Assembly: GCA_020049415.1 (NCBI GenBank)
Contig: JAIFKV010000091.1
Span: 1 to 35,621, forward strand
Reading direction: 5' to 3'
Origin: Betaproteobacteria bacterium
GTDB lineage: Bacteria; Pseudomonadota; Gammaproteobacteria; Burkholderiales; Thiobacillaceae
Length of the DNA: 35,621 bases
The notes beneath the pieces were generated by a model. That model was not told the DNA's origin, made no database searches, and saw only the letters and a list, made by a program, of their open reading frames with translations. A program made the position numbers and the translations under genes. This document shows positions 18,821 through 35,039 of this stretch, piece by piece (position 1 is the first letter of the stretch; every line of letters starts with the position of its first letter).

Positions 18821-18913
18821 GAATACCGAAATTGAACGCCAGTGCCTGAGCTAGATTGTCCAATCCGCCTGGACAGGCGAAGATGCACGCCAACTCGGCA
18901 CCTACGCGCAAGC

Positions 18914-21424
18914 ATGAACCTTGGTATTCCCCTCCAGTTTTTGAGCATAAAGCCGGATTCCAGCCTGCTTTACAGCAGCTTTTATGATCCAAAACTGGTT
19001 CTGCTCTCAATATTGATCGCGATTTTTGCATCGCACGCCGCGCTCACCGTGACTGAGCAGATGCGCGGTGCGCGGCAGGCCATACAGCGTGCCGGATGGC
19101 TGTTGGTGGCGGCGTTGGTGATGGGCGGCGGCACTTGGGCGATGCATTTTATCGGCATGTTGGCGTTGCGTTTGCCTTGCCAGATCACCTATGACAGCAC
19201 CATTACCCTGTTTTCGGTGCTGCCCGGCATCTTGGCGAGCGCGGTCGCGTTGCGGCTGATCAGCCGATCCGGTTTCAATCATCTGCGCGTGTTCGTCAGC
19301 AGTCTGTTGCTGGGGCTTGGCATTGGTGTCATGCATTACACCGGCATGGCGGCGCTGCGTCTGGAAGGGCTGCTGCGTTACGACCCGTTGCTGTTTATTG
19401 TTTCCATTCTGGTCGCGGTGGCATTGGCCTGGGTTGCTTTGTCGATCAATTTCCTGTTGCGCAAGCGCGCCGATATCGCCGGCCGCTGGTTGACCCTGGC
19501 TAGCGCGGTGGTGCTCGGCGGTGCGGTCTCCGGCATGCATTACACGGCGATGGCGGCCGCCTATTTCTTGAATGACGGCGATACCAGCTTGCCGAATTCG
19601 GTTTTGAGTCCGAATGTGCTGGTCGCCATGGTCAGCCTGGCAAGCATTTTGTTGATTGCCTTGGTTCTGTTTGCCATGGCGGTGCGGCGGCATCTGGCGA
19701 TGGCGCGGCAATTGCGTCAAAGCGAACAAAAACTGCGTCGTATGCTGGAAACCACGCATGAAGGTTTCCTCATGGTCGACACCGCGCAATGCGTGCTGGA
19801 TGTAAACCCGGCGTTGTGCAACATGCTGCAATGCGTCCGCGCGTCGATCATCGGGCATAGTTTGCTCGAATTCATGGATCAGCCGAATCGCCAGATTTTT
19901 CTTGCCGCCACCGAGAATCCCGCCAGCGCCGGGCGGTTTGAGATTGCGCTGCCGCGCGCGGATGGTGAACTGCTCACTTGCGAGTTCAGCGTCACCGCGA
20001 CCAGCGATGAGGATGGCAACGCCACCGGTCAGTTTGCGTTGATTACCGACATTACCCAGCGCAAGCAGGCGGAAGCCCAGATCCGCAATCTTGCTTTCTA
20101 TGACGTTCTTACCCAGTTGCCCAATCGTCGCCTGCTGCTGGATCGGCTTGGCCATGCGCTGGCTTCCAGCCAACGATATAGCCGATTTGGCGCGATCTTG
20201 TTTCTCGACCTGGATAATTTCAAAGTCATCAACGATACCCAGGGCCACGATGTTGGCGATTTGTTGTTGAGCGAAGTCGCCCAGCGATTGCAAGCCTGCG
20301 TGCGTGAAGACGACAGCGTGGCGCGTCTGGGCGGCGATGAGTTTGTTGCCTTGCTGGAAAACTTGCACCATGACGAGGCGATTGCCGCCGCGCAGGCCGA
20401 AATGGTGGCGGAAAAAATCCGCGATGCGATCAACCTGCCGTTCAGCATTCAACGCCGTGAATTCCACAGTACGCCCAGCATCGGCATCAGTCTGTTTTTC
20501 GGGCACCGGGTCAGCATCGATGAATTGCTCAAACGCGCCGATGTGGCGATGTATCAGGCCAAGGATGCGGGGCGCAATGCAATCCGCTTCTTCGATCCGG
20601 CCATGCAGGCCGGGTTGGATGCGCGCATCGCCCTGGTGGCCGATTTGCGCCAAGCCTTGCCGCAACATCAACTGCATCTCGACTACCAGCCGCAGGTCGA
20701 TCTGGTTGGGCATATCTTCGGTGCCGAGGTGCTGTTGCGTTGGCGGCATCCGCAGCGAGGTTTGATCTCGCCGGCCGAGTTCATTCCGCTGGCGGAAGAA
20801 TGCAATCTGATCCTGGATTTGGGGCACTGGGTATTGCAGACCGCCTGCGCTCAGATCAAGGTCTGGCAACAGCAGCCGACGACCCGCCTGCTGCGGCTTG
20901 CGGTCAACGTCAGCGCGCGGCAATTTCGGCAACCGGACTTTGTCCGCAAGGTGGAGGCGCTGCTCGCCGAATACGCCATCGACCCGGCGCTGCTGAAGCT
21001 GGAACTCACCGAAAGTCTGGTACTCGACAACGTCGATGACAGCATCGCCAAGATGCTGACGCTGAAAGCGCGCGGCATCGGTTTCTCGATGGATGACTTC
21101 GGCACCGGCCATTCCTCACTGTCCTATCTCAAGCGGTTGCCGCTCGACCAACTCAAGATCGACCAATCGTTTGTGCGCGATATCGCCACTGATCCGAACG
21201 ATGCCGCCATCGTGCAAACCATCATCGTGATGGCCAAAAGCCTTGGCCTCGATGTCATCGCCGAAGGCGTCGAAACCGAGGCGCAACTCGAATTTCTGCG
21301 CCAGCGCGGTTGCGCCGCGTTCCAGGGCTATCTGTTCAGTCGTCCGGTAGCGCTGGACCAGTTCGAGGCGTTACTGTCAGCGCAGCCGGAACTTGATCCC
21401 ACTCCTTTTGCAGACCCACCATGA
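18914..21424 (+). CDS. MHYT-PAS-GGDEF-EAL c-di-GMP signalling protein
   Basis: An 836-residue membrane protein. Seven predicted helices (about 25-260) form an MHYT sensor with three repeat motifs: MHFIGM at 77, MHYTGM at 140 and MHYTAM at 208. The family is proposed to bind copper and sense O2, CO or NO. A PAS domain follows (about 270-385). The GGDEF domain has GGDEF at 473-477 and an intact inhibitory site REDD at 464-467. The EAL domain reads EVL at 605-607, with LELTES (695-701), DDFGTG (727-732) and EGVE (784-787) all present. Both cyclase and phosphodiesterase activity are therefore possible. ATG at 18914 is preferred over an upstream GTG at 18842. The stop overlaps the next gene (ATGA). 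Confidence 0.92.
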   Translation: MNLGIPLQFLSIKPDSSLLYSSFYDPKLVLLSILIAIFASHAALTVTEQMRGARQAIQRAGWLLVAALVMGGGTWAMHFIGMLALRLPCQITYDSTITLFSVLPGILASAVALRLISRSGFNHLRVFVSSLLLGLGIGVMHYTGMAALRLEGLLRYDPLLFIVSILVAVALAWVALSINFLLRKRADIAGRWLTLASAVVLGGAVSGMHYTAMAAAYFLNDGDTSLPNSVLSPNVLVAMVSLASILLIALVLFAMAVRRHLAMARQLRQSEQKLRRMLETTHEGFLMVDTAQCVLDVNPALCNMLQCVRASIIGHSLLEFMDQPNRQIFLAATENPASAGRFEIALPRADGELLTCEFSVTATSDEDGNATGQFALITDITQRKQAEAQIRNLAFYDVLTQLPNRRLLLDRLGHALASSQRYSRFGAILFLDLDNFKVINDTQGHDVGDLLLSEVAQRLQACVREDDSVARLGGDEFVALLENLHHDEAIAAAQAEMVAEKIRDAINLPFSIQRREFHSTPSIGISLFFGHRVSIDELLKRADVAMYQAKDAGRNAIRFFDPAMQAGLDARIALVADLRQALPQHQLHLDYQPQVDLVGHIFGAEVLLRWRHPQRGLISPAEFIPLAEECNLILDLGHWVLQTACAQIKVWQQQPTTRLLRLAVNVSARQFRQPDFVRKVEALLAEYAIDPALLKLELTESLVLDNVDDSIAKMLTLKARGIGFSMDDFGTGHSSLSYLKRLPLDQLKIDQSFVRDIATDPNDAAIVQTIIVMAKSLGLDVIAEGVETEAQLEFLRQRGCAAFQGYLFSRPVALDQFEALLSAQPELDPTPFADPP

Positions 21425-23444: not shown

Positions 23445-24815
23445 TCACTCCAGCCCGTAGCGCTTGATCCGTCGCCACAGCGAAACCCGGTCGATGCCGA
23501 GGATGTCGGCGGCCTGGTTGCGGTTGCCGCCGGTGTATTGCAGAACCTGAGCGATATGGCTGGCTTCGGCTTTTTCCAGGCTATGCAGCACGTTGCCGAC
23601 CGGGGCGGCAACGCGTACCGACAGGTTGCGCAGGCTTTCCGGCAGATGCGCGAGTTCGAGCAATTCGCCACGCGCCAGCGCGACGCCGCGTTCGACCAGG
23701 TTGGCGAGTTCGCGCACGTTGCCCGGGTAGTCGTAACGGCTGAGCAGGCGTAGCGCCTCGGGCGCGATATCGACCACCGGTTTGGCCATTGCCAGCGCGA
23801 ATTTCTTCAGAAAATAGAACGCCAGCAACGGGATGTCGTCGCGCCGTTCGCGCAGCGGCGGCAGGGCGAGGTTGACGACATTGAGGCGGAAGAACAGGTC
23901 GGCGCGAAAGCGGCCGTTGGCGACGCTTTCCTGCAAGTCGCGATTGGTGGCGGCGATGAAGCGCACATCCACCGTCACCGGTTCGGTGCCGCCGACGCGC
24001 AGCAGTTCACGTTCCTGCAACACGCGCAGCAGCTTGACCTGCATCGCCGGCGACATTTCGGTGACTTCGTCGAGCAGCAAGGTGCCGCCCTCGGCGATTT
24101 CGATCAGGCCGCGCTTGACCCGGTCAGCGCCGGTGAATGCGCCTTTTTCGTGGCCGAACAGTTCGTTGGCGAGCAGTTCCTCTTGCAGCGCGCCGCAGTT
24201 CACCGCGACGAAGGAAGCGAAGCCGCGTTGCTCGGCGCGGCTGCTGTGGGCATGCACATAGCGCGCCAGCAACTCCTTGCCGGTGCCGGATTCGCCGCTG
24301 ATCAGCACATTGCAATCGGTCGGCCCGATCTGGCGCGCGGTATCGAGCAGGCGCAGCATCGCCGCGTCCTGGGTGACGATGTTGAGGCCGCCTTCATAAC
24401 CCTCGATGCGCCGCTTCAGGGCGCGGTTCTCGCGCTTCAACAGCACTACATCGAGCGCGCTCTTCACTACCTGGCGCACCTCGTCCAGACGGTAGGGCTT
24501 GGCAATGTAATGAAACGCGCCTTCTTTCATCGCTTCGACGGCGGAATCGAGCGTCGCATGGCCGGTTATGACGATGACCTCGCAATCCGGCTGCAGCGTT
24601 TTTGCTTGGCGCAACAGCGCCATGCCATCGACGCCCTGCATGCGCAGATCGGTCAGCAGCAGGTCGAATTCGTGCTGCTGCAAAGCGTTGAGTCCAGCAG
24701 CGCCGCTCGGGCAGGCGGTGACTTCATAGCCCTCCTTGCGCAACAAATGAGACAGATTTTTCAGCGCTGGCGCTTCGTCATCAACCGCCAGGATGCGGAT
24801 CGGGGGCGTGTTCAT
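23445..24815 (-). CDS. Sigma-54-dependent NtrC-family response regulator
   Basis: A 456-residue enhancer-binding protein. The receiver domain (about 7-120) has VDDE at 11-14, phosphoacceptor Asp56 in LLLTDLRMQGVDG and Lys106. The AAA+ domain (about 146-380) has Walker A GESGTGKE (174-181), the sigma-54 contact loop GAFTGA (225-230) and Walker B GGTLLLDE (243-250). A Fis-type helix-turn-helix closes the protein (GNRNQAADILGIDRVSLWRRIKRYGL). It hydrolyses ATP to open sigma-54 promoters. The chosen ATG at 24815 overlaps the kinase stop by four bases. Its probable targets are the two palindromes at 26292 and 26379 and the promoter at 26461. Confidence 0.95.
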   Translation of the reverse strand: MNTPPIRILAVDDEAPALKNLSHLLRKEGYEVTACPSGAAGLNALQQHEFDLLLTDLRMQGVDGMALLRQAKTLQPDCEVIVITGHATLDSAVEAMKEGAFHYIAKPYRLDEVRQVVKSALDVVLLKRENRALKRRIEGYEGGLNIVTQDAAMLRLLDTARQIGPTDCNVLISGESGTGKELLARYVHAHSSRAEQRGFASFVAVNCGALQEELLANELFGHEKGAFTGADRVKRGLIEIAEGGTLLLDEVTEMSPAMQVKLLRVLQERELLRVGGTEPVTVDVRFIAATNRDLQESVANGRFRADLFFRLNVVNLALPPLRERRDDIPLLAFYFLKKFALAMAKPVVDIAPEALRLLSRYDYPGNVRELANLVERGVALARGELLELAHLPESLRNLSVRVAAPVGNVLHSLEKAEASHIAQVLQYTGGNRNQAADILGIDRVSLWRRIKRYGLE

Positions 24816-26287
24816 TTTTCGCCTCCGCACGGCAGCCACAGGCTGAAGCAGACGCCGCCGCCGGGCGCGCTGACCACCGCGATTGCGCCGTTTTGCTCAC
24901 GCACGATTTCGGCCACGATGTAGAGGCCGAGCCCGGTGCCCTCACCCGGCGCGCGGGTGGTGAAGAATGGGTCGAAAACCTGGCCGATGCGCTCGGCGGG
25001 GATGCCGGGGCCGTCGTCGTGGATGCGGATCAATACCGCGCGGGTCGTCTCGGCTGGAGCGCCCAGTACCTGCGCTGTTCCTGTCTCCAGAGCATGGGTC
25101 ACCTCGACTGGCGGCCAGTCCTGGGCGCTGGCGGCGGTGGCCTCGATGCGGATCCGCACGCTGTCGCCGCCTGCCGCGAGTGCGTTCTGGATCAGGTTGA
25201 TGAATACCTGCTGCATGCGCTGCGGGTCCATGCACAGCAGCAGTTCCGGCGCCAGCGTGAAGCTGACGGTGTCGGCCTTGGGCAGGCGCGGGCGCAGCAA
25301 AAGCAAGCTTTTCTCCAGTACTTCGCGCAGCGGCGTTGGCGGGTTGCTCTGGCTGGGGCGGCGGCTGTAATCGAGCAGGGTATGCACGATACGACGGGCG
25401 CGTTCGGTTTCCTCGTCGATCTGGGTCAACCAGGCGCGCAATTCTGCGCGTGCCGCTGGTGGCAAAGACAAGGGCAGGGTTTCGATTTCCTCCAGCGCAA
25501 TCTGCGCCGCGCCGGAAATGTTGCCGAGCGGGTTGTTCAGTTCGTGCGCGACACCCGAGGCCAAGGTGCCAAGTGAAGCGAGTTTTTCCGATTGCAACAC
25601 TTGCCGGCGGCGCAATTCGAGCTCGCCCAGCATGCGGTTGAGCGCTAGGGTGAAGGACACCATTTCACGGTCCTTCGAAACCATGCTGAAGGCGCGAAAG
25701 TGTCCCTGCGCCAGCGGCGCGAGTTGTTCTTCCAGTTGCTGCAGCGGCCGTCCCACCACCCGGTACAACACTTGGCCGCCGGCCAGCGCCAACAGCACCA
25801 GCACCGCCACCGACCCGAGCAGGAAATGGCGCGATTGCCGTGCGCCGGCAACCAGACTGGCGCGCTCACGGTTACCCAGGTTTTCGCTTTGCGTCAGGAT
25901 GGCATGCCCGGTCGCGCGCAGCACATCGTCGTTGACGGTCGCGCTGGTGAGTTGTGCGCGGTAGAGCGCCAGCGTCCGCGCCAGCATCGGCAGTTCGTCG
26001 TTGCGGGTCAGTTCGGCCAGGATGGTCTGATCCTTCACCAGCAGGCGTTCCAGTTCGGCGGCCAGATTACGTGCCGCATCGAGGTCGGCCTGCGCCCGGT
26101 AAAGGAAGAAATTTTTCTCGTGTCGGCGCATTTCCTGAGCGGTTTCCTGGAACGCGGCGATCGCCACGCCCTCGTTCACGCGCTGCTCCAGATAGCGCAA
26201 GTTGTATGACGCGAACAGCACAAAAGCGCCGACGCCAAGCGCCAAGGCGAGGTAGATGAGGATGATTTTGCCGCGAATGCTGGTCAT
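24812..26287 (-). CDS. Membrane sensor histidine kinase
   Basis: A 491-residue kinase with two membrane helices (about 8-28 and 157-177) enclosing a helical periplasmic sensor (about 29-156), then a HAMP-like linker (about 178-230). The HisKA domain has phosphoacceptor His248 in GVAHELNNPLGNISG. The HATPase domain carries the N-box (NLIQNAL), DDGPGIP, FFTTR and GTGLGL. It matches the kinases that pair with NtrC-type regulators. The stop overlaps the regulator start (ATGA), making the two a translationally coupled pair. It is divergent from the Usp-like/SulP operon. A 18-bp palindrome begins five bases upstream of the ATG, so the regulator may also control its own operon. Confidence 0.93.
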   Translation of the reverse strand: MTSIRGKIILIYLALALGVGAFVLFASYNLRYLEQRVNEGVAIAAFQETAQEMRRHEKNFFLYRAQADLDAARNLAAELERLLVKDQTILAELTRNDELPMLARTLALYRAQLTSATVNDDVLRATGHAILTQSENLGNRERASLVAGARQSRHFLLGSVAVLVLLALAGGQVLYRVVGRPLQQLEEQLAPLAQGHFRAFSMVSKDREMVSFTLALNRMLGELELRRRQVLQSEKLASLGTLASGVAHELNNPLGNISGAAQIALEEIETLPLSLPPAARAELRAWLTQIDEETERARRIVHTLLDYSRRPSQSNPPTPLREVLEKSLLLLRPRLPKADTVSFTLAPELLLCMDPQRMQQVFINLIQNALAAGGDSVRIRIEATAASAQDWPPVEVTHALETGTAQVLGAPAETTRAVLIRIHDDGPGIPAERIGQVFDPFFTTRAPGEGTGLGLYIVAEIVREQNGAIAVVSAPGGGVCFSLWLPCGGEK

Positions 26288-27266: not shown

Positions 27267-29072
27267 ATGACCCTGCCCCGTATTGAAAGTTTGCCACTCT
27301 GGATTCGTCCATTCTTCCCGTTTCTGTCCTGGTTTCCGCGCGTCAATCGCGGCACTGTCAAAGCCGATGCGATGGCCGGACTGACCGGCGCGCTGGTGGC
27401 GCTGCCGCAAGGCGTGGCGTTCGCCACCATCGCCGGCATGCCGCCGGAATACGGCCTCTACGCCGGCATGATTCCGGCGGTCATCGCGGCGCTGTTCGGT
27501 TCCAGTTGGCATCTGGTCTCCGGCCCCACCACCGCCGCTTCCATCGTGCTGTTTTCGGTGCTGTCGCCGCATGCCGAGCCGGGCACCGCGCAATACGTCA
27601 GCCTGGCGCTGACGATGACCTTTCTGGTCGGTCTGATCCAGGTCACGATGGGATTCGCCAAACTGGGCACCCTGGTCAATTTCATTTCGCATTCGGTGGT
27701 GACCGGTTTCACCGCCGGCGCGGCGATTCTGATCGCCACCAATCAGGTCAAGCATTTCACCGGCCTGAGCATGCCGCGCGGCTTGTCTTTTACCGACACC
27801 TGGAGCATGGCGATAACCCACCTTGCCGATATTCAATCCGGTGTGTTTCTGGTGGGTTTGTTTACCTTGTTGCTCGGTATCGCGGTGAAACGCTGGCTGC
27901 CGAAATGGCCGTACATGATCGTCGCCATGCTGGCCGGTTCGCTGCTGGCGGCCGCGCTGACCGCCTGGAAGGGCATCACGCTGCCGACAGTCGGCGCGCT
28001 GCCCGCCGTATTGCCGCCGTTGTCCGCACCGGCGTTCGACGCCGAAAGCATTCGCGCGGTGGCCTCCGGCGTGGTCGCCGTGACGCTGCTGGCCTTGACC
28101 GAGGCGGTGTCGATCGCGCGCGCGTTGGCGGCGCGCTCCGGCCAGCATGTCGATGGCAATCAGGAATTTGTCGGGCAAGGTTTGTCGAATCTGTTTGGCA
28201 GTTTCTTCTCCGGCTATGTTGCCACCGGCTCGTTCAACCGCAGCGGCGTCAACTATGCGGCTGGCGCCAAAACTCCTATCGCCGCCATGCTGGCTGGCAT
28301 TTTTCTGTTGGTGCTGGTGCTGTTTGTCGCGCCCTGGGCACAATTTCTGCCCAACGCGGCGATGGCCGGTATCCTGTTTCTGGTGGCTTGGGGCTTGATC
28401 GATTTCAAGGAGATTTTTCATGTTTTCAAGACCAGCCGCGCGGAGACGACGATTCTCCTTTCTACCTTCGCCAGCACCTTGTTCCTGACCCTGGAGGAAG
28501 CCATCATCATCGGCGTGCTGTTGTCGCTGTCGTTGTATCTGTCGCGCACTTCCAAACCGGATGTGCGCGTACGCGCACCGGACCCGAACAGTCCAAAGCA
28601 CAAATTCACCGATGCCGCCAACGCCACCGAATGTCCGCAGCTTCGCTTCATTCGCATCGACGGTTCCCTGTTCTTCGGCGCTACTTCGCATATCCGCGAA
28701 GCACTGGCGGCGCAGGATCAGGCCAATCCGGAGCAGAAACATGTCGCCGTGGTTGCGCACGGCATCAACTTCCTTGATCTGGCCGGTGCGCATTACCTGG
28801 CCGAGGAAGCCGAACGCCGGCATGCGCTGGGCGGCGGCCTGTACTTTATCCGCGTCAAAGACACCGTGCAGGAGCAGATGGCAGAAAGCGGCGCGCTGAA
28901 AATCATCGGCGGCAATAATCTGTTCGACTCCAAGACCGAGGCTATCGAGGAGATTTGCCGACGTCTGGACCACTCGGTCTGCGCCACTTGCAAGGCGCGC
29001 ATCTTCCGCGAATGCGGTGCGGTCAGCGTCGGCCCGGCGCCAGTCATCGGCGCCGAGATGGCGCATGCCTGA
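27267..29072 (+). CDS. SulP family inorganic anion transporter with STAS domain
   Basis: A 601-residue SLC26/SulP transporter. The membrane part (about 15-430) opens with RVNRGTVKADAMAGLTGALVALPQGVAFA and PPEYGLYAGMIPAVIAALFGSSWHLVSGPTTA, the family's signature region, and runs to about 12-14 helices. A cytoplasmic STAS domain follows (about 455-560). The tail has CATCKARIFREC (Cys at 572, 575 and 583), a possible metal-binding motif. Family substrates include sulfate, bicarbonate and other anions; which one is used here is unknown. It lies 109 bases after the Usp-like gene and is probably transcribed from the sigma-54 promoter at 26461. It is convergent with the next gene. Confidence 0.93.
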   Translation: MTLPRIESLPLWIRPFFPFLSWFPRVNRGTVKADAMAGLTGALVALPQGVAFATIAGMPPEYGLYAGMIPAVIAALFGSSWHLVSGPTTAASIVLFSVLSPHAEPGTAQYVSLALTMTFLVGLIQVTMGFAKLGTLVNFISHSVVTGFTAGAAILIATNQVKHFTGLSMPRGLSFTDTWSMAITHLADIQSGVFLVGLFTLLLGIAVKRWLPKWPYMIVAMLAGSLLAAALTAWKGITLPTVGALPAVLPPLSAPAFDAESIRAVASGVVAVTLLALTEAVSIARALAARSGQHVDGNQEFVGQGLSNLFGSFFSGYVATGSFNRSGVNYAAGAKTPIAAMLAGIFLLVLVLFVAPWAQFLPNAAMAGILFLVAWGLIDFKEIFHVFKTSRAETTILLSTFASTLFLTLEEAIIIGVLLSLSLYLSRTSKPDVRVRAPDPNSPKHKFTDAANATECPQLRFIRIDGSLFFGATSHIREALAAQDQANPEQKHVAVVAHGINFLDLAGAHYLAEEAERRHALGGGLYFIRVKDTVQEQMAESGALKIIGGNNLFDSKTEAIEEICRRLDHSVCATCKARIFRECGAVSVGPAPVIGAEMAHA

Positions 29073-29108: not shown

Positions 29109-31988
29109 TTATGCGTTCTGGCTTGAGCTTGAAACGGGCGGGGAGTGGGTATGCGGTGTTGGCAGGGCGGCATCGAGGCGAGTCAGCCCGCGCAGTATCG
29201 CCACCAGAGCATCGGTCTGCGTGTGCAATTCCGCACAGCCCAGCAGGGCTTCCGCTTGGCGTCCCTGCTGGAAGAGGCTGAGCAGTTCGGCCGCCAGCGC
29301 ATGTATTTGTTGATGTAGCGGGTCGATCGCCTGGAAGCCGGGAAGCTCGCCAAGGCGTGCCAGCCCGTCATGGTCATGCCAAGCGCCAAAGCGGCATTGG
29401 TGCGCGTCCATTGGTGGCGGCATTTCTCGCTCGCCCTTCAGGCAGCTTTCAATGTTCTTTACCCAGGCGCGGTGTTCCACTTCGGCAAACAGCAACGGCA
29501 GCGTGTTACGGTTTACCCCTCTGTCCCGCCAGCAGGTCCAGGCGGGGTGGGGATGCCAGGTAGTCACCCAATCGGGCAATTCGGTTGCCGGCATTGGCCG
29601 GGCGATACCAAAGCCTTGTGCATGGTCACATCCAAGCTGCAACAACAGTTCGCCATGCGCCACGCTTTCGACGCCTTCGGCGATGACCTGGCGGCGAAAG
29701 GCCAGGGCCAGACCCAACACGCCTTCGACGATGGCCAGGTCATCGGGATCGTCGAGCATGTCATGGATGAAACTCTGGTCGATTTTCAGCACATCCGCCG
29801 GGAGTCGCTTCAGGTAGGTCAGCGAGGAATAGCCGGTGCCGAAATCGTCCAGCGCGAAGCGCACGCCGATCTCGCGGCAGGTCCGCATGATTGTGGAGAC
29901 GCCGGCCATGTCCTCCAGCGCGCTGGTTTCCAGGACTTCCAGTTCCAGCAAGCGCGGTTCGACCTCGGCGTGAGCCGCCAGGCTGAGGCGTAGATGCGAG
30001 ACAAAATTGGCCTGCTGCAAATGCCGCGCGGCGATGTTGATGCTGATCGGTATCTCCAATCCGCTTACCCGCCAGGTGTCCAGTTGCGACAGCGCGGTGT
30101 CGAGCACCCACTCGCCGATTTCAACGCCGAGCTGATGATCTTCGACCATCGGCAGGAAAGCCGCCGGCGGCAACAGGCCGCGTTCGGGGTGTTGCCAGCG
30201 GATCAACGCTTCGGCGCCGATCACCTCGCCGGTCTTCATGTTTACCTTGGGTTGGTAATGCAGCACGAACTCGTTGCGGCCGATTGCGTTGCGGATGTGT
30301 TCCAGCGATTCGCGCTGGTTTTTTACCGCCATGTCCTTTTCTACATCGAACAGATGGTAGCGATTCTTGCCGGCTTGCTTGGCCAAATACATGGCTTGAT
30401 CAGCATGCCGGATCAACTGATCCGGGTCGCTGCCGTCATGCGGGTAAATGGTCACGCCGATGCTGGCGGAGATGCGCAACACCGCCTGGCCCACCGTTAC
30501 CGGGTCGGCCGCCGCCAACAGCAGTCGGGACAGCACCAGTTCAGTGTTCTCCGGTCGATCCAGATCCGCCAGCACGGCGACGAATTCGTCACCACCGATG
30601 CGCGCCAGGGTATCGCCATCACGCAGCGCGGCATTCATCCGATGTGACACGGTGATCAACAGTTCGTCGCCGATATCGTGGCCATAGTGGTCGTTGATGG
30701 CCTTGAAGCCGTCCAGGTCGAGATAGGCGACCGCGAGCTGTTTGCCGCGTCGCTGCGATTGCGCCATGGCTTGCTGCAATCGGTCGGCGAGCAGCACACG
30801 GTTGGGTAGATTGGTGAGCGCGTCGTAATGCGCGATATGTTCAAGCTGCTGTTGATGATTCTTCAGCGCGGTGATATCGGTGAACAGCGCAACGTAATGC
30901 CGGGTTTGCCCGTTATCGTCGCGCACCGCGCTGATGTTGAGCATTTCCGCATACACCTCGCCGCTCTTGCGTCGGTTCCAGACTTCGCCATACCAGTGGC
31001 CTTTGATCTGCAAAGCCTGCCACATCACCGCATAGTATTCCGCCGACTGCCGGCCGGATTGCAGCATGCGCGGGTTCTGCCCCAGTGCCTCTTCGCGCGA
31101 ATAACCGGTAATGCGGGTAAAGGTTTCGTTGACATCGACAATAGTGCCCAGTGCATCGGTGATCAAGATGCCTTCGCGGGCGTTGCTGAATACGCTGGCC
31201 GCCAGTTTCAGCTCGTTCTCGGCGCGCTTGCGTTGGGTGATGTCATGCCAGGTACAGAGCACGACCGGCTGATCATTCAGGGTCACTGGTTGCAGGCTGA
31301 CGGCGGCGATCAGTTCGTCACCGTCAGCGCGTAGATAAACCCATTCGAAGCGTTGTGATTCTCCCGCCGCCGCCAGGCCGATCAGCCGCATCGCCTTGCT
31401 GCCGGAGGCTTCGCCGTCAGGTTGCAGCGCCGGCGAAAGGGCTGCGGGTTCGAGTCCGAGCAAGGCGCTACGGTCCGGATAGCCGAGCATCCGCGCGGCG
31501 GCGAGATTGCAGTCGGAATGCTTGCCATTGGTGAGGATCCACATCGGCTCCGGCGCATGCTCGAAAATGGCGCGCAGGCGGATTTCACTGGCGCGCAATT
31601 CCGCCTCGAAGTGTTTCAAGCGAAGTTGTGTGCGTACCCGCACGCGGACAATTTCAATATCAAACGGCTTGACGATGTAGTCGACCGCGCCAAGCTCGAA
31701 ACCTTCCTTCTGATCGAGAAAGTCGCCTTTGGCGGTGACAAAGATGACCGGGATATCCTGACTGGCCGGGTTTGCCTTCAATCGCCGGCAGACTTCAAAA
31801 CCATCCATGCCGGGCATCATCACATCCAGCAGAATCAGGTTCGGCGCAGCCTGTGCGATCAGCTCCAGCGCCTGCGGGCCGGAAGTCGCGAAGCGGATGT
31901 CGTAATCCTGGTCCAGCGCCCCGGCAAGAATCTGGATGTTCGCCGGGATGTCATCAACCAGCAGCAGATTGGCGCGGGTGGTCATCAT
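29109..31988 (-). CDS. REC-PAS-PAS-GGDEF-EAL-CZB response regulator
   Basis: A 959-residue soluble c-di-GMP protein. The receiver (about 6-122) has Asp55 and Lys107; two PAS domains follow (about 132-255 and 262-378). The GGDEF domain carries GGDEF at 465-469 and an intact inhibitory site RDGD at 456-459. The EAL domain has EAL at 593-595, LEVLETSAL (683-691), DDFGTG (714-719) and EGVE (771-774). A C-terminal CZB domain (about 835-935) keeps the probable zinc ligands His839, Cys865, His892 and His896, spaced much as in DgcZ. Both catalytic domains look intact. The ATG at 31988 overlaps the kinase stop by four bases (ATGA), so it is the coupled response partner of the hybrid kinase. Confidence 0.93.
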   Translation of the reverse strand: MMTTRANLLLVDDIPANIQILAGALDQDYDIRFATSGPQALELIAQAAPNLILLDVMMPGMDGFEVCRRLKANPASQDIPVIFVTAKGDFLDQKEGFELGAVDYIVKPFDIEIVRVRVRTQLRLKHFEAELRASEIRLRAIFEHAPEPMWILTNGKHSDCNLAAARMLGYPDRSALLGLEPAALSPALQPDGEASGSKAMRLIGLAAAGESQRFEWVYLRADGDELIAAVSLQPVTLNDQPVVLCTWHDITQRKRAENELKLAASVFSNAREGILITDALGTIVDVNETFTRITGYSREEALGQNPRMLQSGRQSAEYYAVMWQALQIKGHWYGEVWNRRKSGEVYAEMLNISAVRDDNGQTRHYVALFTDITALKNHQQQLEHIAHYDALTNLPNRVLLADRLQQAMAQSQRRGKQLAVAYLDLDGFKAINDHYGHDIGDELLITVSHRMNAALRDGDTLARIGGDEFVAVLADLDRPENTELVLSRLLLAAADPVTVGQAVLRISASIGVTIYPHDGSDPDQLIRHADQAMYLAKQAGKNRYHLFDVEKDMAVKNQRESLEHIRNAIGRNEFVLHYQPKVNMKTGEVIGAEALIRWQHPERGLLPPAAFLPMVEDHQLGVEIGEWVLDTALSQLDTWRVSGLEIPISINIAARHLQQANFVSHLRLSLAAHAEVEPRLLELEVLETSALEDMAGVSTIMRTCREIGVRFALDDFGTGYSSLTYLKRLPADVLKIDQSFIHDMLDDPDDLAIVEGVLGLALAFRRQVIAEGVESVAHGELLLQLGCDHAQGFGIARPMPATELPDWVTTWHPHPAWTCWRDRGVNRNTLPLLFAEVEHRAWVKNIESCLKGEREMPPPMDAHQCRFGAWHDHDGLARLGELPGFQAIDPLHQQIHALAAELLSLFQQGRQAEALLGCAELHTQTDALVAILRGLTRLDAALPTPHTHSPPVSSSSQNA

Positions 31989-34138
31989 GATTGGGGTGTT
32001 TCCATCGTCTTCAGCCACCTGTCGAGACGCTCAAGTGCGTTGGTGTAGTCAAGTTGGCGTACCGCCTTGGCCAGGCTGCTGCATTCTCCAGCAAGCGCGG
32101 TCGCAGAGCATGCCGATTCCAGTTCCGGCAGGCAATGGTGGGCGGAAAAACTTTGTTGTGACAAGTGATCCCGCAGTTCAAGCAGGAGCGCGCGCAGATG
32201 CGCGGGATCAGGCCCGCCAGCAAGCTGCGCCAGCTCCGGCACTGTTTTGCTGTTGCCGCTGGCGGCTGTGCCCATTTGTTCCTGCGACAACCATTGGGCC
32301 AGTTTGTCACGCAGATCGTTGATGCTGACCGGCTTCGCCAGAAAGTCGTCCATGCCGACCGAAAGACAATCTTCCCGGTCATCCTCAAAGGCATTTGCGG
32401 TGACCGCGATAATCGGCAGATGGGTGCGGCCAGACTGGTTTTCCCAGAGCCGAATCTGCCGTGTCGCTTCAAATCCGTCCATGATCGGCATGCGGCAATC
32501 CATCAGCACCAGATCCGGCGTCAGCCCCGCCTGGATCGCCGCGACAGCTGCCTGGCCGTTTTCGCTGCTTTCAACCTGTATGCCGATCTTCTGTAGTTGC
32601 TTCATCAACACTTTGCGATTGATCGGGTTGTCTTCAACGATCAAAACTCGGGCCGGTTGCATCTCCGTCACCTGCATTTCAGGCCAGGCCAGCTCGCTCG
32701 GGAGGGGCCGTTCGCCGCTGTCGAATTCTGTGTCGGTGTGCAGTATGTCGACGTGGGCGCTGAACCAGAAGCGCGCCCCGTGGCCGAACGAACTCTCGAC
32801 CCCCGCCTCGCCGCCCATCAGCCTGGCCAGTTTTTGCACAATGGATAACCCCAGGCCGGTGCCGCTGAATTGCCGGCTGGCGGAACTGTCCACCTGCGAA
32901 AAAGGCCTGAACAGCAAGGCTTGTTTGTCTTCGGCAATGCCAATGCCGCTGTCTGCCACGGCAAAGGTCAATACCGCCGTGTCATCCTGCGCCGCAACTG
33001 CCGTGCCTTCGATGCGGATAAAGCCTTGATCGGTAAATTTGATGGCGTTGCTGACCAGATTCGACAGCATTTGACGCAAGCGGGTTGGGTCGGACCAATA
33101 GCGCTGCTTGGGTCCATGCCAAACCGTCTGGATTTGCAAATTCTTGCTTTGCGCCAACTCGCTGAACAGCGACAGGGTTTCATGCATGATCTGCTCGGGG
33201 TCGACCATCGCACGGTTGAGTTCGAGTTTGCCCGCTTCCACTTTCGACAGATCAAGGATGTCGTTCAGCAGCGTCAGCAGGGTCTGCCCCGAGTTCAAAA
33301 TGGTGCGGGCATATTCGCGTTGATCCTGCGGGCTGCAGCCTGGCATCAGCAACAACTGGCTCATGCCGAGGATGCCATTCATCGGTGTGCGCAATTCATG
33401 CGACATGGTGGCCAGAAACTGACTTTTTGCCAGATTGGCCGCCTGAGCGGATTGATTCGCATCGATCAAGGCGGCCTCGTTATTGCGTACCGAATTGCGC
33501 ATATCGGCAAAGCTTTGCACCAGACTGCCGATTTCATCCTGTCCAGCCATCGGCAGTGTTGCCGCATAGTCATGGTTTGCCATGCGCGAGGCGGCTTCGC
33601 TGAGCACGCGCGTGCGCCGGCCGACCAGCAGTTCAAAGCTGAGGGCAACCGCCAGCATGGTCAACAGAAAGGTGGCCGCGATGATGCTGGCGACGATATG
33701 CGATTCTCTGACGGCTTCGCGATGATGGTCATTGAAGTCGATCCGCGCAGTCAGCACACCTTGGGTGAAACCGCGAAAAACGATGGGGTGGGAAAATTGC
33801 TTGATGCTTTTACCCTCCGGCACGGGTTTCGCGCCAAGCGGGTAAAGACGGCGATTTTCGGCATCGGTCAGTTCGATATGCAGCCAGTTGGGCTGCCGCT
33901 CGCGCAGTATGTCGAGATTTTCATGAATAGCCGCATACTGGTTCTGAATCATGAATGGCAGTAAACCATCCGCCACAATGTCCATCTGTTGACGGACGCT
34001 GTCGTTATCAAGACGATCCAGAGTCGCCACCAAACGCGGCTGCACCACCAGCAAAATCACGCTGATGCTGGCGAGTCCGAGCAGCAGCAGCAGAAACGTG
34101 ATCTTCAACCTGAGGGAATAGCGGATTTCCCGAGGCAT
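31985..34138 (-). CDS. Hybrid histidine kinase (sensor-HAMP-HisKA-HATPase-REC)
   Basis: A 717-residue inner-membrane kinase. Membrane helices at about 13-33 and 149-170 bracket a periplasmic region (about 34-148) that could contact the binding protein encoded just upstream. HAMP (about 171-225) is followed by HisKA with His247 (MSHELRTPMNG), HATPase with N-box NAIKF, DSGIGI and GTGLGL (about 350-460), and a receiver domain (about 497-615) with Asp547 and Lys602. The last 95 residues are helical with HH at 667-668, but are not a recognisable HPt domain. The start at 34138 follows the preceding gene's stop at 34194; the longer upstream frame overlaps that gene and has low-complexity Asn-Thr repeats. 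Confidence 0.92.
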   Translation of the reverse strand: MPREIRYSLRLKITFLLLLLGLASISVILLVVQPRLVATLDRLDNDSVRQQMDIVADGLLPFMIQNQYAAIHENLDILRERQPNWLHIELTDAENRRLYPLGAKPVPEGKSIKQFSHPIVFRGFTQGVLTARIDFNDHHREAVRESHIVASIIAATFLLTMLAVALSFELLVGRRTRVLSEAASRMANHDYAATLPMAGQDEIGSLVQSFADMRNSVRNNEAALIDANQSAQAANLAKSQFLATMSHELRTPMNGILGMSQLLLMPGCSPQDQREYARTILNSGQTLLTLLNDILDLSKVEAGKLELNRAMVDPEQIMHETLSLFSELAQSKNLQIQTVWHGPKQRYWSDPTRLRQMLSNLVSNAIKFTDQGFIRIEGTAVAAQDDTAVLTFAVADSGIGIAEDKQALLFRPFSQVDSSASRQFSGTGLGLSIVQKLARLMGGEAGVESSFGHGARFWFSAHVDILHTDTEFDSGERPLPSELAWPEMQVTEMQPARVLIVEDNPINRKVLMKQLQKIGIQVESSENGQAAVAAIQAGLTPDLVLMDCRMPIMDGFEATRQIRLWENQSGRTHLPIIAVTANAFEDDREDCLSVGMDDFLAKPVSINDLRDKLAQWLSQEQMGTAASGNSKTVPELAQLAGGPDPAHLRALLLELRDHLSQQSFSAHHCLPELESACSATALAGECSSLAKAVRQLDYTNALERLDRWLKTMETPQS

Positions 34139-34150
34139 GCTGTGCTGGAT

Positions 34151-34177
34151 GGTTGCGTTGGTTGCGTTGGTTGAGTG
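34151..34177. repeat. 9-bp triple tandem repeat between binding protein and kinase genes
   Basis: GGTTGCGTT occurs twice in perfect tandem (34151-34168), followed by a diverged third unit, GGTTGAGTG. It occupies the 55-base gap between the PhnD-like stop and the kinase start. Confidence 0.8.
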
Positions 34178-34193
34178 GGTCAAGTTATTAAAG

Positions 34194-35039
34194 TTAGTCA
34201 CTGGCTTTGACGTAGTACTTTTCCAGGTTCCATTCGGCCAGAATCGCATATTCCTTTTCACTCGCCGGCACCGCCTGAAGAATCGGCACCTTGGCCAGCA
34301 GCGCCGCACCTTCAGGGGTGCCGGCAAGTTCGAGAAATGCGTTCTTTACGCGTAGCCGGTGCGCGTCAGTCACCCGCGGATGCGCTACCACCGGGTGGGG
34401 CGGTGATTTTCGAGTTTCATAAATGATGCGCAGATTGTCGCGCAGATCGCTTTTTTGTCGATCAAAGGTGGCCTTGACTCCCCCGCTGGCTTCCGATATC
34501 CCCAATGCGGTGTTCAGATAGGCGGAGGTATGGGTTTGTGCATACAGCGGGGTGAATTTGATTTTGAACAGCGCATCCAGGTCTGCTCGCATCAGCAGCG
34601 ATGCGCCGAGCGCGTTGGGCGCCGGAAAAGAGATCTTCTTGCCGTGTAGATCCTTTACCTGCTGATAAGGGCTGTTTTTCGCCACGGCCAGTACGCCATA
34701 CAACGGTGTGGCATCGCGCAGCAGTGGGATGTAGCCCTGTTTGCGCGCGGCGATCATGGCGTGATACGGATTCATATAAGCGAAATCGAATTCGCCGGCC
34801 TGAAATGCGGCCTCGAAATCGGGAATGCGCGGCGCGCCCTTCATCGTCAATTTCAGTCCGGATCGCTGCGAGACTTGCTCAAGAATCGGCGCCCAGACGG
34901 CGGCTAATTCGCGCGCCTCGAATTGCGGCACTACGCCAAAGCTGTAACTTGCATCGCCCCGCGCCAATCCAAACGGCGCCAGCAGGATCGCGCAGAGCCC
35001 GCCGCTGATTACGGATTTGTTGAACAGTGTGTGCATCAT
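34194..35039 (-). CDS. PhnD-type phosphate/phosphonate periplasmic binding protein
   Basis: A 281-residue exported solute-binding protein of the PhnD family. The signal peptide (about 1-28) is hydrophobic around ISGGLCAILLAPFGLARG. The mature protein shows YSFGVVPQFEARELAAVWAPILEQ (about 32-55), FDFAYMNPYHAM (about 84-95) and GKKISFPAPNALGASLLMRADL, the ligand-contacting segments of the family. An AGAGGG ribosome-binding site precedes the tandem ATG at 35039/35036. No permease or ATPase gene is nearby. The next gene, in the same direction, is a hybrid kinase with a periplasmic domain. I infer a sensory, not transport, role, with phosphonate, phosphate or a similar oxyanion as candidate ligand. 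Confidence 0.88.
   Translation of the reverse strand: MMHTLFNKSVISGGLCAILLAPFGLARGDASYSFGVVPQFEARELAAVWAPILEQVSQRSGLKLTMKGAPRIPDFEAAFQAGEFDFAYMNPYHAMIAARKQGYIPLLRDATPLYGVLAVAKNSPYQQVKDLHGKKISFPAPNALGASLLMRADLDALFKIKFTPLYAQTHTSAYLNTALGISEASGGVKATFDRQKSDLRDNLRIIYETRKSPPHPVVAHPRVTDAHRLRVKNAFLELAGTPEGAALLAKVPILQAVPASEKEYAILAEWNLEKYYVKASD

Follow-up and report, generated by a model that had tools for sequence, protein, structure and literature searches.

A PhnD-type binding protein gene beside hybrid kinase and GGDEF-EAL-CZB genes, with no transporter, points to a periplasmic sensing operon in a betaproteobacterium

Three genes and their products

We examined a contig of 35,621 nucleotides from Betaproteobacteria bacterium (JAIFKV010000091.1 of assembly GCA_020049415.1), referred to below in its entirety as the window. 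It carries three consecutive minus-strand genes, running from position 35039 down to 29109, that encode a PhnD-type periplasmic binding protein (P0003), a membrane hybrid histidine kinase (P0001), and a multidomain enzyme of cyclic di-GMP (c-di-GMP) turnover (P0002). The first two genes are 55 bases apart, the last two share an ATGA stop/start overlap (Table 1), and no gene for an ABC ATPase or permease lies between 29109 and 35039. A first-pass annotation had described this same arrangement, with the PhnD-type gene first and no transporter, and our analysis confirms it. We propose that the operon is a signalling system in which P0003 acts as a sensor rather than as a transporter subunit.

Table 1. 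Features of the three-gene operon, in window positions
Feature	Position	Strand	Basis
P0003, orphan PhnD-type (PF12974) periplasmic binding protein, 281 aa	34194..35039	-	Pfam, AlphaFold2 model, hydrophobic N-terminus
P0003 substrate-binding protein (SBP) domain	34248-34940	-	Pfam
P0001, membrane hybrid histidine kinase, 717 aa	31985..34138	-	Pfam HAMP, HisKA, HATPase_c, REC
P0001 receptor input module	33554..34138	-	Hydropathy, model, fold comparison, homology among partners
P0001 transmembrane segment 1 (TM1)	34046-34102	-	Hydropathy
P0001 Cache/PAS-like periplasmic domain	about 33698-34033	-	Hydropathy, model
P0001 transmembrane segment 2 (TM2)	33641-33697	-	Hydropathy
P0001 HAMP	33485..33619	-	Pfam
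P0001 HisKA	33230..33430	-	Pfam
P0001 HATPase_c	32756..33091	-	Pfam
P0001 receiver	32300..32647	-	Pfam
ATGA stop/start overlap P0001/P0002, 4 bases	31985..31988	-	Sequence
P0002, soluble REC-PAS-PAS-GGDEF-EAL-CZB c-di-GMP enzyme, 959 aa	29109..31988	-	Pfam
P0002 receiver, presumed phospho-acceptor	31641..31964	-	Pfam
P0002 GGDEF	30360..30833	-	Pfam, motif pattern
P0002 EAL	29595..30299	-	Pfam, motif pattern
P0002 CZB (zinc-binding)	29283..29474	-	Pfam

P0003 matches the PF12974 (Phosphonate-bd) profile over its full length (positions 1-242 of 242, E=2e-49, 168.6 bits, cut-off 27). Its hydrophobic N-terminus is a predicted export signal, and AGAGGG lies immediately 5' of the ATG. It scores only 44.9 bits with the PhnD equivalog TIGR03431, below the cut-off of 261.1. 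The AlphaFold2 model (pLDDT 92) has the fold of PhnD, PtxB, XAC2383, and ArrX, with Z scores of 25.2 for PtxB, 25.1 for XAC2383 (root-mean-square deviation 2.6 over 248 residues), 24.6 for ArrX, and 22.4 for AioX. By sequence profile, the best match in the PDB is ArrX (E 6e-22).

P0001 has both the H-box SHELRTP and the receiver motif DCRMP by pattern search, and Pfam finds kinase and receiver domains but no GGDEF domain in it. Hydrophobic segments at residues 13-31 and 148-166 flank a domain of about 115 residues that has no Pfam match above cut-off. The model of this region (pLDDT 93) predicts one Cache/PAS-like domain framed by long helices, and its VIA-align Z scores are 12.4 with a WalK model, 10.5 with CitA, 10.2 with WalK, and 9.9 with the LapD orthologue CdgS9. 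P0002 contains RxxD and GGDEF, EAL, DDFGTG, KIDQS, and CRFGAW motifs by pattern, and hydropathy reveals no transmembrane-like segment in it.

Pairing of PhnD-type genes with receptor genes

How widespread is the pairing of P0003 relatives with signalling genes? Using alignment A1 of the P0003 family, we searched 84,980 species, each represented by one genome. This yielded 508 relatives, and 80 loci were taken forward (cited below by L number). Neighbouring domains were called with profiles built from the Pfam-defined domains of the window's own genome, and PhnD-bearing open reading frames (ORFs) of at least 560 amino acids were left out of the neighbour counts. L149 and L079 have no PhnD call and fall outside the counts, and L072 and L179 are one contig. 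A same-strand kinase or GGDEF gene comes next after 71 of the 80 PhnD-type genes with a called neighbour, versus 21 of 735 other ORFs of at least 150 amino acids in the same loci. Counted over 81 PhnD-type genes (79 loci), the next gene encodes a hybrid kinase in 37 cases, a kinase in 17, a GGDEF-EAL protein in 10, and a GGDEF protein in 7; the remainder are HAMP/PAS only (4), on the opposite strand (2), at a contig end (1), ABC (1), or other (2). The sole ABC case belongs to a second, separate PhnD in L159 that stands beside a true PhnC (316 bits, cut-off 266). Among the 79 loci with a called PhnD, L159 is also one of only five in which an ABC-type ATPase is encoded no more than three genes away, in a search that did not extend to PhnE. 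Loci from related genomes show the same picture, with a PhnD-type gene followed by a same-strand kinase or GGDEF gene in 28/30 (the split gene of L093 is counted twice). The pairing recurs in records titled Rhodobacteraceae to Nitrospirae.

Relatives are also found on plasmids, where a tblastn search with P0003 returned 15 records and two neighbourhoods were inspected. In both of these, from Vibrionaceae (36% identity), the gene after that of the binding protein encodes an ATP-binding protein, and an EAL gene is close by; the Vibrio neighbourhood has HD and Hpt genes as well. On the Vibrio coralliilyticus plasmid (L212, 1-8738), genes for H-NOX, Hpt, HD, and EAL proteins are found close to the binding protein and ATP-binding genes. 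A contig labelled as a 'Halobacteria archaeon' metagenome-assembled genome, whose bin may be contaminated, carries a typical pair of PhnD and HAMP-GGDEF-EAL genes (L156).

The window's own genome (3.72 Mb, 228 contigs, 84% complete) is rich in such proteins. It has 19 PF12974 matches, 18 of them above cut-off, and 16 of these 18 are fused to or lie beside a kinase or c-di-GMP enzyme. Five are fusions to a kinase, GGDEF, GGDEF-EAL-CZB, or GAF-HD-GYP (L027, L028, L030, L031, and L033). Ten genes, including that of the window, have a same-strand kinase or GGDEF-EAL gene next (the partner in L032 was called by our own kinase profile only), and in L020 (5509-8768) the PhnD-type gene shares bases with the 3' end of the GGDEF-EAL gene that precedes it. 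L036 (7539-9593) encodes the domain as a fusion with rhodanese, and two stand-alone receivers come next; in L021 the gene stops at the contig edge. The weak match L037 was discarded, since neither Pfam (E up to 1e-5) nor our own profile recognises a PhnD domain in it. Among these architectures, L033 (3914-6595) joins PhnD-type, GAF, and HD-GYP domains, the last a c-di-GMP phosphodiesterase type, directly in one protein. At a further locus, L099 (1343-5178), a PhnD-PAS-histidine kinase fusion stands in tandem with a solo PhnD, followed by a histidine kinase, a receiver, and a REC-PAS-PAS-GGDEF protein.

Transporter genes are scarce by comparison. The first-pass annotation had named a dependent phnCE-type transporter elsewhere in the genome as the finding that would speak against it; no PhnE or PhnC above the curated cut-off is present in the 84%-complete assembly, an outcome in its favour within the limits of that assembly. 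Two weak PhnE-like permeases on contig C150 proved to be parts not of a phn system but of an ABC system of the amino-acid type, which has a binding protein of its own. In 23 genomes of the same genus we counted 245 PF12974 matches (E<=0.001) versus three PhnE hits above cut-off, in two genomes. At E<=0.001, matches to the PhnE profile occur in 19/23 of these genomes, most of them far below cut-off, as for other permeases. Each of the three PhnE hits lies within 1.5 kb of a same-strand PF12974 match; therefore real transporters are detectable and rare.

We compared 80 partner N-termini (6 from the own genome, 12 from related genomes, and 62 from the wide sample), and the pre-HAMP regions of 58 kinase-type and 22 GGDEF-type partners form one family (hhalign 100%, E 2.7e-41). 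As judged by this comparison, the two types of partner have one homologous, Cache-like input domain. W85 and P100 are invariant across all 47 rows of the input-domain alignment A3 (46 loci and the window). A reciprocal search of 101 related genomes with A3 alone, limited to the best locus per genome and 1500-base flanks and leaving weaker matches aside, gave 30 loci, 27 of which have a PhnD-type gene alongside. This was direct in 26 (25 upstream and 1 downstream, in L206), and L183 was added by gene coordinates; L188, L198, and L209 have no PhnD-type gene within the flanks. Moreover, distances among PhnD-type proteins correlate with distances among partner N-termini (n=66, r 0.64, with 0.13 as the maximum over 2000 permutations), a comparison that retains shared species history. 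In the kinase subset (n=45), the partial r of PhnD with the input domain, given the kinase core, is 0.69, versus 0.44 with the kinase core.

Altogether, given that no PhnC or PhnE passes cut-off in the 84%-complete assembly, and given the conserved pairing and the common input domain, the transporter-less PhnD-type protein is very probably a detachable sensor, as the first-pass annotation had supposed.

The proposed output in c-di-GMP

We consider it likely that the three genes form a transporter-less signalling operon in which P0003 docks on P0001, phosphate passes to P0002, and the balance of GGDEF and EAL activity in P0002 shifts. We infer the docking, the direction of control, the phosphotransfer to P0002, the sign of the change in c-di-GMP, and the nature of the ligand. 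In this scheme, P0003 would be exported and would bind a small ligand, probably not canonical phosphate or phosphonate. Either its liganded or its unliganded form would then dock on the Cache-like periplasmic domain of P0001 and alter kinase/phosphatase activity through TM2 and HAMP. Phosphate would move from the P0001 histidine to the P0002 receiver, directly or by way of the P0001 receiver and a separate Hpt protein, and phosphorylation of this receiver would shift GGDEF versus EAL activity. Zinc may act separately through the CZB domain as a second input. The relay from periplasm to c-di-GMP that was first drawn for this locus is thus kept in part: the sensor role of the binding protein is well supported, and the phosphorus ligand is not supported.

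c-di-GMP as the output of the operon is plausible on two grounds, the ATGA-coupled REC-GGDEF-EAL gene and a conserved operon in Accumulibacter. The Accumulibacter locus (L102) has the same three-gene order, with a PhnD-type protein (74% identity), a histidine kinase with receiver (47%), and a REC-PAS-GGDEF-EAL protein, again with an ATGA junction. Residues 1-138 of P0002, the receiver end, are 49% identical to the third protein of this locus.

Several points weigh against the proposal. We saw just a single further example of the complete three-gene operon, L102, whose output protein is without CZB and has one PAS domain fewer (by our own profiles). Of the gene order that the first-pass annotation expected to see conserved, the two-gene pairing of binding protein and receptor is kept in relatives, which is in favour of that annotation, and the full order was seen elsewhere only in L102. 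In the wide sample, 8/54 kinase-type pairs have a c-di-GMP gene no more than two genes away, irrespective of strand, versus 22/164 control genes, which is no enrichment. P0001 has its own receiver and no Hpt that Pfam finds, so that phosphate may reach P0002 directly or via a separate Hpt. The Cache likeness of the input domain is one of fold only, with a single Foldseek match at E<=0.001, and shared species history is not removed from the distance correlation. The neighbour calls come from home-made profiles. Finally, E. coli PhnD, a transporter protein, is the nearest solved structure to P0003 by single-sequence search and by Foldseek E-value.

Are P0001 and P0002 partners at all? P0002 might instead be merely co-transcribed and receive its phosphate elsewhere, from other kinases, and the target of P0001 might be a regulator encoded at a distant site. 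The hybrid architecture without a detected Hpt and the small share of kinase-type relatives with a linked c-di-GMP gene would suit such a split, whereas two features argue for partnership: the ATGA overlap joins the kinase gene to an output gene with a receiver, and Accumulibacter repeats this order with a similar output protein. We regard this alternative as unlikely, though likelier than the others considered below.

c-di-GMP output is not general to kinase-type pairs. Since the wide sample shows no enrichment, the case for this output in the window rests on its own third gene. In related genomes, 16/23 kinase-type pairs have a c-di-GMP gene nearby, and 13 of these are one recurring REC-HD-GYP gene just upstream. 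A recurring cluster of REC-HD-GYP, PhnD-type SBP, hybrid kinase, a protein of about 180 amino acids, and a histidine kinase with two receivers is seen in L026 (2570-9744); the same gene order occurs in L073, L078, L080-L084, and L087. In L026, from which alone the Pfam result comes, the protein of about 180 amino acids is a haem-NO-binding H-NOX protein. The cluster, together with the arrangement on the Vibrio plasmid, suggests a PhnD-type sensor that is wired into a nitric-oxide/c-di-GMP network.

The surroundings of the operon add a few features. A convergent gene for a SulP-family permease with a STAS domain lies 3' of it (27267-29072). On the 5' side of P0003 there are about 580 bases without a minus-strand ORF of at least 100 amino acids before the contig ends. 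A promoter and terminator scan gave a single promoter-like site, located inside phnD, and nothing useful came of it or of Rfam and tRNA scans of the window. The window also encodes a further histidine kinase paired with a sigma-54 response regulator, as well as a protein of MHYT-PAS-GGDEF-EAL architecture (23445-26287 and 18842-21424).

The ligand pocket and related systems

What might P0003 bind? The published pocket of AioX comprises Y88, C106, Y131, S161, S163, H192, and D210 (PMC5908839), and a Tyr/Ser/Thr/His set is reported to make the phosphite oxygen contacts (PMC5700983). By sequence alignment rather than superposition, at about 16% identity, the AioX positions correspond to I72, N90, L113, A143, G145, H170, and V188 in P0003. 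Across 48 homologues (alignment A2, 47 of the 80 scan loci and P0003), these positions hold I in 48, N in 48, L in 48, A in 45 and S in 3, G in 48, H in 48, and V in 46 and I in 2; N90 is invariant by selection, since the scan pattern demands Asn at the position of AioX Cys106. Thus, of the published oxyanion contacts, P0003 keeps only the histidine, H170. All of Y, Y, S, S, and H are present in E. coli PhnD and in PtxB; in the PhnD of L159, the one linked to PhnC, the two serines and the histidine remain but not the two tyrosines. On this alignment, the canonical phosphate/phosphonate site is missing in the P0003 family, and a different pocket is conserved. Paralogues in the window's genome vary: L020 retains every one of these five contacts (Y, Y, S, S, and H), and L034 has Tyr, Ser, Ser, and His. 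Some sibling sensors, L020 among them, may well bind phosphorus oxyanions, to judge from these residues.

These replacements bear on the ligand that the first-pass annotation assigned to P0003, a phosphonate- or phosphate-like molecule, and they count against it. On that view, the kinase would receive from P0003 a phosphorus oxyanion, whether phosphate, phosphonate, or another, and the operon would couple phosphorus status to c-di-GMP. PF12974 membership and the retained His170 fit it, as does one relative, L112 (3850-11808) of Candidatus Thiodiazotropha, where phoU-pstC-pstA-pstB lies just upstream of a PhnD and HAMP-GGDEF-EAL pair. XAC2383, a relative in fold, is also said to prefer phosphate-containing compounds. 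HtxB binds hypophosphite with three contacts replaced (PMC5700983). Against these stand the loss of Y88, Y131, S161, S163, and D210 to I, L, A, G, and V, a change kept nearly throughout the homologues, and the retention of the contact residues in E. coli PhnD, PtxB, and in part the PhnD of L159. No pst operon adjoins any of the other loci, so L112 is 1/80. We judge a phosphorus ligand improbable. The least probable reading is that P0003 is an orphan transport protein for a distant ABC permease, beside a kinase for regulatory convenience in uptake and sensing: characterised superfamily proteins are mostly ABC binding proteins, the assembly is incomplete, and L112 has its pst genes, but no PhnE or PhnC passes cut-off in that assembly (the C150 hits being of amino-acid type), ABC-type ATPases, as distinct from PhnE, were looked for near the pairs and are rare there and include the L159 PhnC of a separate PhnD, the pst link is confined to one locus, and the receptor pairing recurs across distant groups.

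A ligand outside the oxyanions would not be foreign to the family. The sterol-transport protein BstB is grouped with phosphonate-type binding proteins (PMC10942540; PDB 7t1m), and therefore PF12974 proteins are not restricted to oxyanions. Clustering of neighbour genes at the 80 loci gave no common metabolic neighbour as a clue to the ligand; ABC-type ATPases appeared in nine loci. In five Rhodobacteraceae-type loci (L121, L124, L125, L129, and L168), a conserved membrane protein and, by eye, a sulfotransferase-like gene precede the pair. The membrane protein is presumably a chromate-type transporter, by eye.

These observations allow a broader proposal, which we put forward tentatively and think somewhat less than even in its chances. 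A widespread PhnD-fold family (508 matches in 84,980 species) may have exchanged its oxyanion pocket for a different, strictly kept one. It would serve solely as the detachable, ligand-binding part of a receptor encoded by two genes, in which the Cache-like input domain is joined to kinases, hybrid kinases, GGDEF, or GGDEF-EAL proteins. All members would sense one common small molecule, probably uncharged or hydrophobic, and in the window this would be read out by a two-step relay to c-di-GMP.

How does the operon compare with known systems? In NspS-MbaA, TorT-TorS, and LuxP-LuxQ, a periplasmic binding protein controls a membrane kinase or c-di-GMP enzyme; NspS, TorT, and LuxP belong to other binding-protein families, and the receptor itself carries the output. 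XAC2383-XAC2382, in which a PF12974-type binding protein is paired with a membrane c-di-GMP protein that carries a diguanylate cyclase, is closer. According to a 2018 J Biol Chem study, the periplasmic Cache domain of XAC2382 reportedly binds the SBP, and this Cache domain is said to recur with varied outputs. Like that pair, the window has a PF12974 SBP beside a membrane receptor and no transporter. Unlike it, the receptor here is a hybrid kinase without GGDEF, and the c-di-GMP enzyme is a separate receiver protein. By sequence, the P0003-family profile (A1) reaches no better than E 0.16 with XAC2383 (5ub3). A second profile, built from seven PhnD proteins of the same bacterial family that have GGDEF-EAL partners, matches it at E 2e-12, and matches PtxB better (E 5e-22).

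AioX, ArxX, and ArrX are PF12974-type sensor proteins that act through the AioS, ArxS, and ArrS kinases (PMC5908839). The AioXSR, ArxXSR, and ArrXSR trios resemble the operon in combining genes for an SBP, a histidine kinase, and a response regulator, although the kinase here is hybrid. They differ in that their regulators are reported as AtoC-type or CitB-type (PMC5908839), whereas P0002 is REC-PAS-PAS-GGDEF-EAL-CZB. Moreover, the arsenic-binding Cys106 of AioX is Asn90 in P0003, and the other listed contacts except the histidine are replaced. An AioXSR-like trio of PhnD-type SBP, histidine kinase, and sigma-54 regulator occurs at L023 (1665-5351). Its SBP has Tyr, Cys, Tyr, and Ser at AioX positions 88, 106, 131, and 161; hflX-hflK-hflC adjoin, and no arsenic enzyme is among the eight genes scanned there.

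PhnD, PtxB, and HtxB share their fold (Z about 22-25, closed forms) and Pfam family with P0003. PhnCDE differs from the window in that neither phnC nor phnE is found above cut-off in the 84%-complete assembly, the PhnD equivalog score is missed, and pocket residues are replaced. A survey of Azospirillum describes PF12974 domains in two-component sensors of two strains (PMC4618731); as in the fused paralogues of the window's genome, PF12974 is the sensing part, and the passage on these sensors mentions no c-di-GMP partner (PMC4618731).

Signalling by a PF12974 binding protein via a membrane partner is therefore already known from AioX, ArxX, and ArrX and, as reported, from XAC2383-XAC2382. In the open literature we found no description of a PhnD-type protein together with a hybrid kinase and a separate GGDEF-EAL-CZB protein, nor of a genus-scale expansion of PF12974 or an altered pocket.

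What follows for the family? Ten Vibrio and Salinivibrio plasmid records annotate relatives of P0003 as 'phosphate/phosphite/phosphonate ABC transporter substrate-binding protein'. Because PF12974 proteins far outnumber PhnE in the genus and 16/18 in the window's genome stand beside or are joined to signalling genes, claims of phosphonate uptake drawn from genomes may be wrong in lineages of this kind. With a conserved non-canonical pocket and a common receptor domain, a single ligand screen would be informative for many kinases and diguanylate cyclases that at present have no assigned signal.

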